From Sphingomonas sp. (GTDB taxonomy: Bacteria > Pseudomonadota > Alphaproteobacteria > Sphingomonadales > Sphingomonadaceae), in assembly GCA_017304655.1 (NCBI GenBank), contig JAFKLY010000002.1:248001-312000 (forward strand): a stretch of 64,000 bases of DNA, written 5' to 3'. Every line of letters begins with the position of its first letter. Positions within the stretch are counted from its first letter, which is position 1. The position numbers and the translations under genes were made by a program. The notes under the pieces are model-generated. The model searched no databases. It saw nothing but the letters and a program-made list of their open reading frames with translations, and had not been told where the DNA came from. Of this stretch, positions 23,514 to 29,583 are shown piece after piece.

Positions 23514-24161
23514 ATGAACATCATCCTGCTGGGACCGCCCGGCGCCGGCAAGGGCACGCAGGCGCAGACCCTGGTCGCGGAGCGCGGCATGGTCCAGCTC
23601 TCGACCGGCGACATGCTGCGCGCCGCCGTGAAGGCGGGCACGCCCATCGGCCTCAAGGCGAAGGCCGTGATGGAAGCGGGCGAGCTGGTCTCCGACGAGA
23701 TCGTCTCCGGCATCATCGGTGAAGCGCTCGATGCGCTCGCGGCCGATACGGGCGTGATTTTCGACGGCTATCCACGCACCGCGCCGCAGGCGCACAGCCT
23801 CGACACGCTGCTGGCCGACCGTGGCCGCCAGCTCGATCATGTCATCGAGCTGGAAGTCGACGAGGACGCGCTGGTCGACCGGATCACCGGCCGCTTCACC
23901 TGCGCGAGCTGCGGTGAGGGCTATCACGATCGCTACAAGCAGCCCAAGGTCGCCGGAACGTGCGACAAGTGCGGCGGCACCGAGTTCAAGCGTCGTCCTG
24001 ACGACAATGAAGAGACGGTGCGCACCCGCATGGCCGAATATCGCGCCAAGACCGCGCCGATCCTGCCGATCTACGAGGCGCGCGGCATCGTGAGCCGGGT
24101 CGACGGCATGGCGGACATCGCCGTGGTGTCGAAGGCGGTCGCGGCGATTCTCGACGCCTGA
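23514..24161 (+). CDS. adk: Adenylate kinase
   Basis: A 215-residue enzyme that interconverts 2 ADP with ATP and AMP. The P-loop GPPGAGKGTQAQTL, the AMP-binding LSTGDMLRAAV and the DGYPRT motif are present. The LID domain is the zinc form, with four cysteines in CASCGEGYH and CDKCGG. Length is normal. It is the last spc gene here; in related genomes rpsM follows, but here two polysaccharide genes intervene. Confidence 0.97.
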   Translation: MNIILLGPPGAGKGTQAQTLVAERGMVQLSTGDMLRAAVKAGTPIGLKAKAVMEAGELVSDEIVSGIIGEALDALAADTGVIFDGYPRTAPQAHSLDTLLADRGRQLDHVIELEVDEDALVDRITGRFTCASCGEGYHDRYKQPKVAGTCDKCGGTEFKRRPDDNEETVRTRMAEYRAKTAPILPIYEARGIVSRVDGMADIAVVSKAVAAILDA

Positions 24162-24168
24162 TCCGGCC

Positions 24169-24200
24169 TGCCTCTCTTCCGCCCGGCGGGAGAGAGGGCA
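24169..24200 (+). terminator. Candidate hairpin terminator after adk
   Basis: TGCCTCTCTTCCGCC and GGCGGGAGAGAGGGCA form a long stem with one wobble and one bulge, a few bases after the adk stop. There is no T-run after it, so it may act as an mRNA end-stabiliser or weak terminator. The rest of the gap to 24403 holds nothing that I recognise. Confidence 0.4.
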
Positions 24201-24403
24201 CCGATCCTCCGCTGCCGTCAGCCCCCTATGCCTTGTTAACCCCGGGATGCTATGCCGCCCGGGCATGGCCAACAGCAGCGCATCGTCCGAAATCCGATTG
24301 AACGTGCCGGAAGCCCTGCGCTGCAGTTGCACGCGGCGGGGCGTGGCGCGACTTTGTGCAGCGCGACGGGCCATCGGATGAAGGGCGAGCACGAAGCGAC
24401 GTC

Positions 24404-25690
24404 ATGACGATAGCATCGGACACCACTATCGCGACCATGTCGATGAAGAGCGCGCGCCGCGAAGGAACGGCGCGAGCGTCGGACGCTGCTGGCTCGCTGC
24501 TGCTTGTCCTGCCGCTGGTGGTTCATCAGCAGGACGGACGCATCTTCATCGAAAACCAGGCCGGCAATGGCCTTGGTCAGTGGCTCCGCCATTTCGAGCG
24601 CATGACGCTGGCCGTGCCGCTGCAAGAGGGGCCACCACCCTCGGGGAGCGTGGCAATCGACAGCCTCGGTCTTGGCGAGCGGCTCGCCATCGAACTGTTG
24701 CCGGAAGCCTGGACCGCGCTCCGCTTCCTGCGCTGCTATCCGGCCGTTCGGCGCCGCCTCGGGCAACTGATCGACGCGCATGACTATCTGCAATTCGCCA
24801 TCGGCGGTGCCTGGGGCGACTGGTCGGCTATCGGCGCACTGATCGCCGCGCGGCGCGGGCGCAAGGCCTCGGTCTGGACAGACCGGGTGGAATCGCAAGT
24901 GATGCGGATTGACGCGCGCCGCTTCAAAGGCGTCCGGCGGATGCAGCGTCTCTTCAATGCCTGGCTCGCGCATCATCTGGAACGGCGCGTGATCCGGCGC
25001 ACGACGCTGGGGCTTTTCCATGGCAAGGATTGCTACACCGCCTATCAGGCGTTCAGCCCGAACCCGTTTCTGGTGCACGACATTCATCTCAAGCCGTCGG
25101 ATCGCATCCCTGAGGAACGGTTGGCGAGCAAGATCGCGACCGCGTCGGAAGGGCCGCTCGATCTCATCTATGTCGGCCGGCTGCACCCTGACAAAGGCGT
25201 GATGGACTGGATCGAGACGCTGCGCATGGTCGGCGAGGCGGGCGTGCCGTTCCGGGCGCGCTGGTTCGGCGCCGGGCCGCAGCAGGATGAGGCCCGCGCC
25301 CGGGTGGAAGCGCTGGGCCTCGCGGACCGTGTGACGTTCCCCGGGCTGATTGTCGATCGGCCGCAATTGCTCGACCATCTGCGGGCGGCCCACGTCATGC
25401 TCTTCTGTCACCTGACGCCGGAATCGCCGCGCAATCTCATCGAGGCGCTGGTCTCCGGAACGCCGATCGTCGGTTATGGCTCGGCCTATTCGGAGGATCT
25501 GGTCTCCGCACATGGCGGGGGAGTGCTGACGGCGATGGACCCGCGCCTGCTCGCGGACGAAGTGATCCGCCTGGCAAAGGACCGGACCGCTTTGGCTGAT
25601 CTCATCGGGCGGGCCGCGCAGGACGGACAACATATGAATGACGAGGCCGTCTTCGCGCACCGCAGCGAATTGATGATCCGCCACAGCTAA
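24404..25690 (+). CDS. Glycosyltransferase, GT4-like
   Basis: A 428-residue GT-B fold enzyme. The C-terminal half is clear: LIYVGRLHPDKGVMDWIETL, then RVTFPGLI, and the donor-binding PESPRNLIEALVSGTPIVGYGS with the E-x7-E-like acidic pair. The N-terminal half is poorly conserved and includes HGKDCYTAYQAFSPNPFLVHD. It likely adds a sugar to a lipid-linked saccharide in the cytoplasm. It lies tail-to-tail with a Wzx-like flippase gene. The start is unsure: ATG 24404 is chosen, but GTG 24356 and ATG 24437 are possible, and none has a strong ribosome site. Confidence 0.8.
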   Translation: MTIASDTTIATMSMKSARREGTARASDAAGSLLLVLPLVVHQQDGRIFIENQAGNGLGQWLRHFERMTLAVPLQEGPPPSGSVAIDSLGLGERLAIELLPEAWTALRFLRCYPAVRRRLGQLIDAHDYLQFAIGGAWGDWSAIGALIAARRGRKASVWTDRVESQVMRIDARRFKGVRRMQRLFNAWLAHHLERRVIRRTTLGLFHGKDCYTAYQAFSPNPFLVHDIHLKPSDRIPEERLASKIATASEGPLDLIYVGRLHPDKGVMDWIETLRMVGEAGVPFRARWFGAGPQQDEARARVEALGLADRVTFPGLIVDRPQLLDHLRAAHVMLFCHLTPESPRNLIEALVSGTPIVGYGSAYSEDLVSAHGGGVLTAMDPRLLADEVIRLAKDRTALADLIGRAAQDGQHMNDEAVFAHRSELMIRHS

Positions 25691-25735
25691 GCAAAAGCGC
25701 CCGCTCCGTCGCGGAGGAGGGTTCAGCCTCGGCTT

Positions 25736-27232
25736 CTATTGGCGTGCGCGCCGCCGTGCGAAGCCTTGCAGGATGCTGCTCACTTCCCGCTCGGGGCCGT
25801 CCGGCCGCCCGGCGAGATGCCAGATGGCGGCGTGGCTCATGACATAGAGCGCGCCGCCGAGCGCGATGCTCGTCAGGAGCGCTGCGAGATGCGACATCGC
25901 TTCGAATGCTGCGAGTTCCTTGAAGGCAAGCAGGCCAAGGGTCATGGCGCCCAGCGCGGCGATCGACCGGGAGGAGCCCGCCAGCTGATCGCGCACCGGA
26001 ACATGGGCAACGTCCCGCGCGAGTGTCAGGAACAGACCGACACCGACCAGCATGGACAGGGTGCGCGCTGCCAGCACGCCCTCGATGCCGAACATCAGCA
26101 GCCCGATGATGATCGCGGGGGTACGACAGGCAAAGGTCAGGACATCGCGGCGGAACAGCGCGCGCGTCTGGCCCATCGCCATAGCCAGCGGCCGCACCGG
26201 AATGATCAGATTCTCGAAGGCCAGCGCAACGGCGATCACCTGAATGATCGGAATGATCGGCGCCCATTTCCCGCCGAGAAAGCCGAGGACGAAATCGTCC
26301 GCCACGAGCGCGAGCCCGACGCCGGCCGGAGCGCAGATGGCGAACATGAGCGACTGGATGCGCTTGAAGCCCGAAATGAGCCGTTGGGGATCGTCCTTCA
26401 CCAGCGTGAGCCCGGGGAAGAGGAGGTGGATCATCGATCCGCCGATCTCCCGACTGGGCAGGGCTGCCTTGTCGTCGCCATAGCTGTAATAGCCGACGGC
26501 GCGCTGGCCGAGCAGGGCGCCGATCAGCAGCGTGTCGATTCGCAGATTGATGGTGTTGAGCATCGAACTGAGCGTCACCCAGACCGAAAAGGACCAGATG
26601 TCCCGCACCCGCCGCGTCGAGAGGCGTGGCCTGTAGGGGGCGTACAGGTACGTGATGATGACGCTGAGCAGCTGGAGAACGGTGATCGGGATGACAATCG
26701 CCCAATAGCTCCGGTAGAAATAGGCAATCGGGATCGCGACCAGAAACGAGGTAATGCGGCTCGCTGCTTCCATCACGAAGGCCGGCTTGAACGAGAGATG
26801 CTTCTGCATCAGCGGCCAGCGCGCGCTGTAAAAGCCGGAGATCAGCGCGTTCAACGCCATCAGCAGCAGGATGGGGATGAGGCGCGTATCGTTGTAAATG
26901 GCCGCTGCCGGCCAGGTAATGATCAGCAGCACCACGCACAGCATCACACCGCGTGCGAGGCCGAGCGTGAACGCGCTGTGGAAATGGTCGTCCTCCAGAT
27001 TGTCGGTCTGGATCAGCGCCTCGGCAATCGGCAGCTGTGTCAGCGCGACGATCACGGCGTTGAGGCCGGTCGCCAGTGCCACCAGGCCGAAATCCTCCGG
27101 CATGAGCAGCCGCGCCAGGATGATCGAGGACGCGAAGGTCAGGAGATTGACGATGATCCGGGCTGCGGCAAACCAGGCAAAGCCCTTGATCAGTCTGTTC
27201 TTCACCGATGTCGTCGGTGCGGCTGCGTCCAT
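25736..27232 (-). CDS. Lipopolysaccharide/exopolysaccharide flippase, Wzx/MOP superfamily
   Basis: A 498-residue polytopic membrane protein with about 12 to 14 hydrophobic helices. The N-terminus NRLIKGFAWFAAARIIVNLLTF and the motif LARLLMPEDFGLVALATG are typical of polysaccharide transport (RfbX/WzxC-like) proteins, as is VGYYSYGDDKAALPSREIG near residue 245. It probably moves lipid-linked saccharide units across the inner membrane. ATG 27232 is preferred to the TTG at 27238. It is convergent with the glycosyltransferase (45-base gap) and divergent from rpsM, so it breaks the usual adk-rpsM order. Confidence 0.88.
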   Translation of the reverse strand: MDAAAPTTSVKNRLIKGFAWFAAARIIVNLLTFASSIILARLLMPEDFGLVALATGLNAVIVALTQLPIAEALIQTDNLEDDHFHSAFTLGLARGVMLCVVLLIITWPAAAIYNDTRLIPILLLMALNALISGFYSARWPLMQKHLSFKPAFVMEAASRITSFLVAIPIAYFYRSYWAIVIPITVLQLLSVIITYLYAPYRPRLSTRRVRDIWSFSVWVTLSSMLNTINLRIDTLLIGALLGQRAVGYYSYGDDKAALPSREIGGSMIHLLFPGLTLVKDDPQRLISGFKRIQSLMFAICAPAGVGLALVADDFVLGFLGGKWAPIIPIIQVIAVALAFENLIIPVRPLAMAMGQTRALFRRDVLTFACRTPAIIIGLLMFGIEGVLAARTLSMLVGVGLFLTLARDVAHVPVRDQLAGSSRSIAALGAMTLGLLAFKELAAFEAMSHLAALLTSIALGGALYVMSHAAIWHLAGRPDGPEREVSSILQGFARRRARQ

Positions 27233-27393
27233 CGTCAAAGCGTCTTTCGGCTGGAGCTTCTGTCAAGCAAGGTACAGGCGGCCTTTACCAGCAAAAAAGT
27301 CAGCTATTCGTTACGATCGCGGGGGTCATAGAGGGGTTGCAGGGCTTTTCCTACAGATTATATGTCGTGCCCCGGGCGGGTGCGTGCCGGCCA

Positions 27394-27553
27394 TTGACAG
27401 TTCGGCCGACTCACGCTAACGCCCGCCGATCCCGAGACGCTTGGTCAAACGGCAGCGCGTGCAGGCGCCCGCCGTCCTTTTTGCGTCCTGGGTGGTAACG
27501 CGACGAGATAGGGCGTCCGCCACAGCGCCCTGTGGAGCAGGAGAACTTACGAT
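27394..27553 (+). promoter_or_regulatory. Candidate alpha-operon promoter and leader
   Basis: TTGACA at 27394-27399 and TAACGC at 27417-27422, spaced by 17 bases, precede rpsM. They would give a leader of about 125 nucleotides, with a GGAGCAGGAG ribosome region at its end. The 321-base gap between the flippase start and rpsM (27233-27553) has no gene that I can support. The -10 box is not ideal. Confidence 0.45.
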
Positions 27554-27922
27554 ATGGCACGTATTGCGGGCGTTAACATCCCGACCAACAAGCGCGTAAT
27601 CATCGCGCTCACTTATATCCATGGCATTGGCGCCAAGACTGCGGTCGACATCGCCGACAAGCTGGGCATCGACCACAGCCGCCGCGTTCAGGACCTGAGC
27701 GATGCGGAAGTGCTGCAGATCCGCGAGACGATCGACGCCAGCCACACCGTCGAGGGCGACCTGCGTCGCGAGACCGCGATGAACATCAAGCGGCTCATGG
27801 ACCTGGCCTGCTATCGCGGCCTGCGTCATCGCAAGGGCCTCCCGGTCCGCGGTCAGCGCACGCACACCAATGCGCGCACCCGCAAGGGCAAGGCCAAGCC
27901 GATCGCCGGCAAGAAGAAGTAA
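27554..27922 (+). CDS. rpsM: 30S ribosomal protein S13
   Basis: A 122-residue protein of the 30S head that bridges to the 50S subunit and contacts P-site tRNA. It starts [26 protein letters not shown] and has the C-terminal signature [25 protein letters not shown]. Length is normal. It is first in the alpha operon and, here, has no ribosomal gene directly upstream on its strand. Confidence 0.98.
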
Positions 27923-28004: not shown

Positions 28005-28394
28005 ATGGCACGGGAACCCCAGCGGCTTCGCAGGCGCGAGCGCAAGAACATCTCGGCCGGCGTCGCACATGTGAACGCCAGCTTCAACAACACCATGGTC
28101 ACCATCACCGACGCCCAGGGCAATGCGATCAGCTGGTCCTCGGCCGGCATGATGGGCTTCAAGGGCTCGCGCAAGTCGACCCCTTATGCGGCGCAGGTCT
28201 GCGCCGAGGACGCTGGCCGCAAGGCTGCCGAGCACGGCGTCCGCACCCTTGAGGTGGAAGTGAAGGGTCCCGGATCAGGCCGTGAGTCGGCGCTGCGCGC
28301 GCTGCAGGCGGTGGGCTTCACCATCACCTCGATCCGCGACGTGACGCCGATCCCGCACAATGGCGTTCGTCCGAGCAAGCGCCGCCGCGTCTGA
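28005..28394 (+). CDS. rpsK: 30S ribosomal protein S11
   Basis: A 129-residue protein of the 30S platform. Canonical parts: [56 protein letters not shown] and the end [23 protein letters not shown]. It follows rpsM by 82 bases and precedes rpoA by 124; the latter gap shows no clear terminator. Confidence 0.98.
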
Positions 28395-28518: not shown

Positions 28519-29583
28519 ATGACTGTCAACATCAAGAACTGGCAGGAATTGAAGAAGCCCAACGGCCTGGAGATCAAGGCCAGTGGCGACCCGAAGCGTC
28601 GCGCGACCTTCGTCGCCGAACCGCTTGAGCGCGGCTTTGGCCTCACGCTGGGCAATGCCCTGCGCCGCGTGCTGCTCTCCTCGCTGCAGGGAGCCGCTGT
28701 CACGGCAATCAAGATCGAGAACGTCCTGCACGAGTTCTCCAGCCTCGCCGGCGTGCGCGAGGATGTGACCGACATCGTGCTCAACGTGAAGCAGATTGCG
28801 CTCAAGATGGAAGGCGACGGTCCGCGTCGTCTCCAGCTCAGCGCCACTGGCCCGACCGAAGTGAAGGCCGGCGACATCGCGGTGACCGGCGATATCGCCG
28901 TCATGAACCCCGATCTGGTGATCTGCCATCTGGACGAAGGCGCCAGCTTCAACATGGAGCTGACGGTGGACAGCGGCAAGGGCTATGTCCCCGCCGTGAA
29001 CAACCGCCCGGCCGACGCGCCGATCGGCCTCATCCCGGTCGATGCGCTCTATTCGCCCGTGCGTCAGGTCGCCTACAAGGTCGAGAACGCCCGTATCGGC
29101 CAGGAGCTGGACTATGACCGCCTCAACCTGACGGTCGAGACGGACGGCACTGTGAGCCCCGAGGACGCCGTGGCTTATGCCGCGCGCATCCTGCAGGACC
29201 AGCTGCAGCTCTTCGTCCACTTCGAGGATGCGCTGCCGAGCGCCATGCCGTCGAGCGGCGCCGGTGCCGGCGCTTCGTCCGAGGAAGGCGAAGGCGACAC
29301 CAACCAGATCAACCGCTACCTGCTCAAGAAGGTGGACGAGCTGGAGCTGTCGGTCCGTTCGGCGAACTGCCTCAAGAACGACAACATCATCTACATTGGC
29401 GACCTCGTTCAGAAGACCGAGGCCGAGATGCTCCGCACGCCGAACTTCGGCCGCAAGTCGCTCAACGAGATCAAGGAAGTCCTGAGCTCGATGGGCCTGC
29501 GCCTCGGCATGGATATCCCCGGCTGGCCGCCGGAGAATATCGAGGAGATCGCCAAGAAGCTCGAGCAGGAACTGCTGGGCTAA
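28519..29583 (+). CDS. rpoA: DNA-directed RNA polymerase subunit alpha
   Basis: A 354-residue subunit that nucleates polymerase assembly and contacts promoters and activators. The N-terminal domain shows [29 protein letters not shown] flexible acidic, Gly/Ser linker near residues 245-265 leads to the C-terminal domain [23 protein letters not shown] with the UP-element-binding arginine, and [14 protein letters not shown]. It is about 25 residues longer than the E. coli protein, largely at the C-terminal end. A GGGGAAA site lies just before ATG 28519. Confidence 0.98.

Follow-up and report, generated by a model that had tools for sequence, protein, structure and literature searches.

The S10-spc-alpha block is one of the most strongly conserved bacterial gene orders, and within it the spc and alpha ribosomal operons are normally neighbours (secY-adk, then rpsM-rpsK-rpoA-rplQ). 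In the stretch of DNA analyzed here, hereafter the window (64,000 nucleotides, part of contig C10 of a 3.58-Mb genome designated G000, which matching loci of relatives such as Sphingobium xanthum NL9 (G117) and Sphingobium sp. BIN35 place in Sphingobium), a glycosyltransferase gene and a flippase gene lie between adk and rpsM, raising the questions of when this junction was opened, how the alpha operon is transcribed, and which polysaccharide the two genes might serve. Comparisons were made within Sphingobium, within the family Sphingomonadaceae and with other families of the order. The reading which we favor, with a probability of about 0.72, is that of a replaceable polysaccharide cassette at a pre-existing transcription boundary between adk and rpsM, probably serving exopolysaccharide (EPS) machinery encoded on contig C7 of the same genome.

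Genes between adk and rpsM

Open reading frames, sequence and Pfam searches agreed in placing a GT4-type glycosyltransferase (GT) gene and a Wzx-type flippase gene in convergent orientation between the adk stop codon and the rpsM start codon (Table 1), as described in the first-pass annotation of this DNA. Their orientation shows that the two genes are not a single operon. The flippase gave a full-length match to Polysacc_synt_3 (E 2.9e-66; 224 bits versus a cut-off of 23; profile positions 1–293 of 293) and a second match to Polysacc_synt (E 2e-29). The GT matched Glyco_trans_1_4 (E 1.4e-15) and Glycos_transf_1 (E 9e-15), the two matches scoring 58.2 and 55 bits versus cut-offs of 27 and 26.4 and lying in the C-terminal half only, the donor-binding domain, and contains TPESPRNLIEALVSG, which by eye has EX6E spacing, the canonical GT4 motif being EX7E. 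No NCBIfam equivalog scored above its cut-off for either protein. That both are real genes is shown by their homologs in other species. They were the sole genes of the interval by ORF list and Pfam; neither encodes an integrase or a transposase, as would be expected of a mobile element or genomic island with integration machinery of its own.

Table 1. Features at the spc-alpha junction (positions in the window).
Feature	Position	Strand	Basis and remarks
adk	23514–24161	+	Final gene of S10-spc block, left border; Pfam ADK, E 6e-52
G+C-rich hairpin directly 3' of adk	24171–24197	+	Candidate spc transcript end; no T-run
GT4-type glycosyltransferase	ORF 24356–25690, likely start ATG 24404	+	Pfam; ORF opens at GTG 24356, codon usage favors ATG 24404
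Wzx-type MOP flippase	ORF 25736–27238, ATG at 27232	-	Pfam
Alpha operon promoter, TTGACA-17-TAACGC	27394–27422	+	Conserved across genomes
Leader part 1, hairpin(s) then T-run, attenuator-like	27424–27493	+	Consensus fold and pair counts
Leader part 2, helix that covaries and has an internal loop, then Shine-Dalgarno	27500–27544	+	Alignment covariation
rpsM	27554–27922	+	Opens alpha operon, right border; single Ribosomal_S13 match of the genome, E 1.2e-31
rpsK	28005–28394		ORF list
rpoA	28519–29583		ORF list

Age and width of the interval

Both adk and rpsM were located in 16 genomes from the order's other families, in 115 genomes of other Sphingomonadaceae genera and in 91 Sphingobium genomes. 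All 16 genomes of other families had the two genes on the same strand with a gap of 115–267 bp. Among the other Sphingomonadaceae genera, 94 of 115 had them no more than 8 kb apart on one strand, with a gap of 144–5624 bp (median 992 bp; above 600 bp in 58 of the 94), while in the remainder they were distant on one contig (11 genomes) or on different contigs (10 genomes). Only 18 of the 91 Sphingobium genomes kept the genes within 8 kb of each other on a single strand (gap 1463–5187 bp), and a compact gap was found in none of the 91. In a further 28 the genes shared a contig but lay on opposite strands (30–48 kb apart in 22 of these genomes), in 13 they were on the same strand but distant, and in 32 they were on different contigs, which is uninformative. 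As the gap is variable across Sphingomonadaceae, its opening within the family long predates the GT and Wzx pair, and the earlier proposal that the cassette itself split the operons was not borne out. Judged from gene order, the adk-rpsM gap is a recurrent insertion site of Sphingomonadaceae, old and repeatedly refilled.

With respect to the pair itself, GT homologs (E ≤ 1e-30) were present in 9 of 94 Sphingobium genomes and flippase homologs (E ≤ 1e-60) in 12 of 94, many of them placed elsewhere in the genome. Ancestral order would place the same pair here in nearly all relatives, the outcome that the first-pass annotation named as refuting its view; this was looked for and not found. The exact pair is not ancestral, which agrees with the earlier suggestion that polysaccharide genes entered here. 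Within the genus, a GT4 of this family together with a flippase occurred in the interval only in the window and in genome G201, which differs in having an extra gene between the two and a flippase match of 27%. Such rarity would be expected had a single recent acquisition of GT and Wzx split an intact spc-alpha block in this lineage, with rpsM gaining a promoter thereafter. We regard this as very unlikely, however, because the gap measured 1.5–5.2 kb in all 18 order-keeping Sphingobium genomes, varied across the family and was open in sister clades as well.

Contents and phylogeny of the interval

Pfam analysis of fetched intervals demonstrated that throughout Sphingomonadaceae adk is followed by an SRPBCC-type gene and often then by glutamate dehydrogenase, with an acyltransferase, a DUF1275 protein, a DUF3419 protein or a response regulator in some Sphingobium intervals. 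In the clade of the window the contents were glycosyltransferases, GT61, Wzx and, in G180, UDP-galactopyranose mutase (Glf), mostly arranged so that glycosyltransferases lie towards adk and either a flippase or GT61 lies towards rpsM. This clade of 10 genomes (support 100/99) was defined by a tree of 54 rows built from secY, adk, rpsM, rpsK and rpoA, several rows being partly filled. Its sister group comprised 7 order-keeping genomes, G193, which likewise keeps the order, and 26 genomes whose adk and rpsM had ceased to be neighbours. Most Sphingobium genomes outside the window's clade have lost the adk-rpsM neighbourhood, often via inversion, and the relocated genomes mostly retained, behind adk, the SRPBCC gene, the acyltransferase or both. 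The separation of the operons by rearrangement, offered earlier as an alternative to insertion, was thus seen in other Sphingobium lineages but not in the genome of the window, which kept the ancestral order. On the branching pattern of this tree, insertion and rearrangement both occurred, on different branches of one open junction.

In G021, the first-branching relocated Sphingobium (L051, 3559–6708), the DUF3419 gene, a companion and the acyltransferase stay at the rpsM side, unlike most other relocated genomes, in which the acyltransferase stays beside adk. This layout hints at more than one rearrangement breakpoint, although a single ancestral event may still lie behind all relocated Sphingobium.

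The contents of the interval changed faster than its flanks, since secY was 91–95% identical to that of the nearest relatives, the flippases found at the same place in G200, G203 and G213 were only 52–53% identical to that of the window, and in G213 and G200 the GT homolog sits at other loci. GT homologs in four other genomes of the clade were 64–69% identical. We infer from this disparity that cassettes were replaced by recombination between conserved flanks. The flippases of G000, G200, G203 and G213 share place and orientation, and the more alike flippases (74% identical to each other) belong to G203 and G213, which are sister genomes in the tree, as would be seen if the clade had inherited GT and flippase vertically as a fast-evolving pair whose differences arose from divergence and loss. 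This explanation appears unlikely. Although G200 groups with G117 and G180 near G000 (weak support), the flippases of G203 and G213 resemble that of G000 at least as much as the G200 flippase does; GT61 takes the flippase position in G177/G178, G117 and G180; the interval flippase of G191/G201 is just 22–27% identical; and the displaced GT homologs of G213 and G200 also argue against simple descent.

The mixed contents family-wide, together with the convergent orientation of GT and Wzx, could also suggest passengers with no common role, retained near a highly expressed locus since the site tolerates insertions. We consider this quite unlikely, as adk and rpsM were close together on one strand with polysaccharide-type genes inside in 10 of 10 genomes of the window's clade, versus a GT in the interval of one genome (G221) in the neighbouring clade of 7, and as the distant homologs of the GT lie within EPS operons. 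The replaceable cassette that we favor would have the junction become a site of repeated gene gain, loss and exchange in Sphingomonadaceae, and later a rearrangement breakpoint in most Sphingobium, the site being occupied in the window's clade by a small, fast-changing polysaccharide cassette. A junction repeatedly opened, refilled and then used as a breakpoint constitutes a natural experiment on operon cohesion.

Promoter and proposed transcript boundary upstream of rpsM

The promoter assigned to rpsM by the first-pass annotation was sited (Table 1) and found to be conserved across genomes. A TTGAC-N17-20-TA motif within 260 bp upstream of rpsM was present in every one of 101 records (from 98 genomes, of which three were represented twice), compared with 2.6 expected from mononucleotide shuffles. 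It was present in other families with a gap of 115 bp as well, some of which carry a perfect TATAAT. As compact genomes also have the promoter, it is an ancestral feature that the cassette did not bring, contrary to what had been proposed, and the same result refutes promoter gain after a recent split. An independent alpha-operon promoter therefore existed before the junction opened. A sigma-70 consensus scan of the interval reported no site, and misses this promoter because its -10 element is poor. Interval ORFs end upstream of the promoter, except that two reach into it marginally, by 4 and 26 bp.

The hairpin directly behind adk had a folding energy of -26.5 kcal/mol (z -1.64), weakly better than shuffles; it was not reported by a terminator scan, whose matches in the interval were at chance level. 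We infer that the spc transcript terminates after adk, the hairpin being a candidate for its end. According to the mechanism proposed here, the spc transcript would stop after adk, and rpsM-rpsK-rpoA-rplQ would be transcribed from an old promoter of their own; insertions falling between adk and this promoter would leave ribosomal expression intact. Insertions would be tolerated because the alpha operon need not rely on read-through from adk.

A structured leader before rpsM

The alpha operon transcript of Sphingomonadaceae is predicted to carry a long structured leader. For its first part, a consensus fold and pair counts were obtained from 40 Sphingobium, and a T-run hairpin was present in 71 of 89 Sphingomonadaceae rpsM leaders versus 42 of 445 shuffled sequences. 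The second part, adjoining the Shine-Dalgarno sequence, follows the pattern GC-nnnGAG-AURGGG...CCCYGU-GGA-GC. In a 65-row alignment, 95.9% of the cells of this helix were paired and 70 cells were changed on both sides versus 16 when shuffled, with a covariation score of 0.368 versus 0.158 shuffled (0/500) and at most 0.137 when slid. The motif was found in 87 of 89 Sphingomonadaceae leaders and in none of 12 outgroup records (9 genomes); going by these sequences, the leader is absent from the other sampled families of the order. Under strict filters, the leader model gave one match in the window, one in the whole genome and, among 142 genomes of the class, matches in just 2, each from Sphingomonadaceae. 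The rpsM leader, conserved, covarying and placed right before a ribosomal protein gene, is a candidate new ribosomal leader.

Searching the window against Rfam at gathering cut-offs gave no match. Alpha_RBS (RF00140) was rejected as an identity for the rpsM leader, with 26.2 bits versus a cut-off of 38, and relatives L047, L055 and L060 scored 25.6–30.1. One outgroup genome (L110, 8942–9033) scored 40.7 bits, above cut-off, without having the Sphingomonadaceae helix, so that the likeness to Alpha_RBS probably arises at least partly from rpsM start codons. The Alpha_RBS leader has been described as having a narrow distribution, in Gammaproteobacteria. As in the E. coli alpha operon leader, the structure reported here lies just before rpsM and places a helix near the ribosome binding site; the E. 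coli leader (RF00140) is bound by S4, however, and rpsD, which encodes S4, is not among the genes of the alpha operon here. A published list of new ribosomal leaders contains none before rpsM in Alphaproteobacteria (PMC7247131), and a non-exhaustive literature search found nothing on such a leader. We lean, by a modest degree, towards an undescribed cis-acting RNA leader (27424–27553), consisting of the T-run hairpin and, at the ribosome binding site, a helix whose GAGAU and GUGGAGC strands are invariant, which controls the alpha operon of Sphingomonadaceae. A ribosomal protein of the alpha operon may be its ligand, making it a candidate regulator of this operon in bacteria with rpsD elsewhere. 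By rendering the alpha operon independent of spc, promoter and leader together may have allowed the junction to open throughout the family.

Polysaccharide machinery elsewhere in the genome

The genome encodes two PF02397 initiating transferases, on contigs C7 and C9, and one PF13440 flippase, the Wzx of the interval. The C7 locus (C7:78000–112000; L162, L163) holds a WcaJ-like initiating transferase, Wzy_C, Wza-, Wzz- and tyrosine-kinase-like proteins, Ugd (UDP-glucose dehydrogenase) and rml-type genes, the last named by eye, and its scanned genes included no recognizable flippase or repeat-unit glycosyltransferase. The parts of a complete Wzy-dependent EPS cluster are thus not gathered at one locus: GT and Wzx lie in the window and the others on C7. 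Homologs of the GT, 45–47% identical, were found within Rhodobacterales EPS operons, those of a Paracoccus (L156) and of another member of the order (L155) being accompanied by counterparts of C7 genes (identities of 40% for Wzy_C, 41% for the initiating transferase and 28% for the kinase). Because no flippase or repeat-unit glycosyltransferase was recognized among the scanned C7 genes and the GT homologs sit in EPS operons, GT and flippase are likeliest to serve the C7 polysaccharide, and are probably used with its machinery. The GT4 would probably add one sugar to the lipid-linked repeat unit, which Wzx would then probably carry across the inner membrane for the Wzy-type machinery of C7.

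The GT and Wzx pair is a new case of two known kinds, insertion at an operon boundary and scattered polysaccharide genes. Polysaccharide pathways with scattered genes are known from Sphingomonadaceae. In the sanxan pathway of Sphingomonas sanxanigenens NX02 the polysaccharide genes are likewise scattered, with GT, flippase, polymerase and precursor genes at separate chromosomal places and not in one cluster (PMC5399355). The text of that paper contains neither 'ribosomal' nor 'adenylate kinase' and describes no adk-rpsM site, whereas in the window's clade a single, defined junction has been used again and again for varying polysaccharide genes. The promonan cluster of Sphingomonas sp. LM7 (PMC11340318) has similar parts (initiating transferase, GTs, Wzx, Wzy, Wzz, Wza and kinase) but forms one complete cluster, while here flippase and GT stand apart from the rest. 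Published insertions into ribosomal operons also involve small gene sets between conserved operons, with the new order lost in some descendants; that study concerned tusDCB, bfd-bfr and nrdHEF insertions in Gammaproteobacteria and Bacilli, whereas in the present case an entire alphaproteobacterial family has had its spc-alpha junction hit repeatedly and with different cargo. A literature search, which was not exhaustive, found nothing on the adk-rpsM junction in sphingomonads. The family-wide insertion hot spot and the rpsM leader are the points worth following, and as a practical rule, stray polysaccharide genes of sphingomonads should be sought between adk and rpsM.

Beside the wzy-like gene of C7, a 574-aa protein without a Pfam family is encoded (L162:15762–17483). 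Among glycan genes near the C9 initiating transferase lies a gene for a 439-aa polytopic protein without a convincing Pfam family (L165:4166–5482). The latter may be another, divergent flippase missed by Pfam, so that the interval Wzx may not be the sole flippase of the genome. Deletion of wzx in Sphingomonas sp. LM7 gave no EPS phenotype (PMC11340318), which makes such redundancy plausible.
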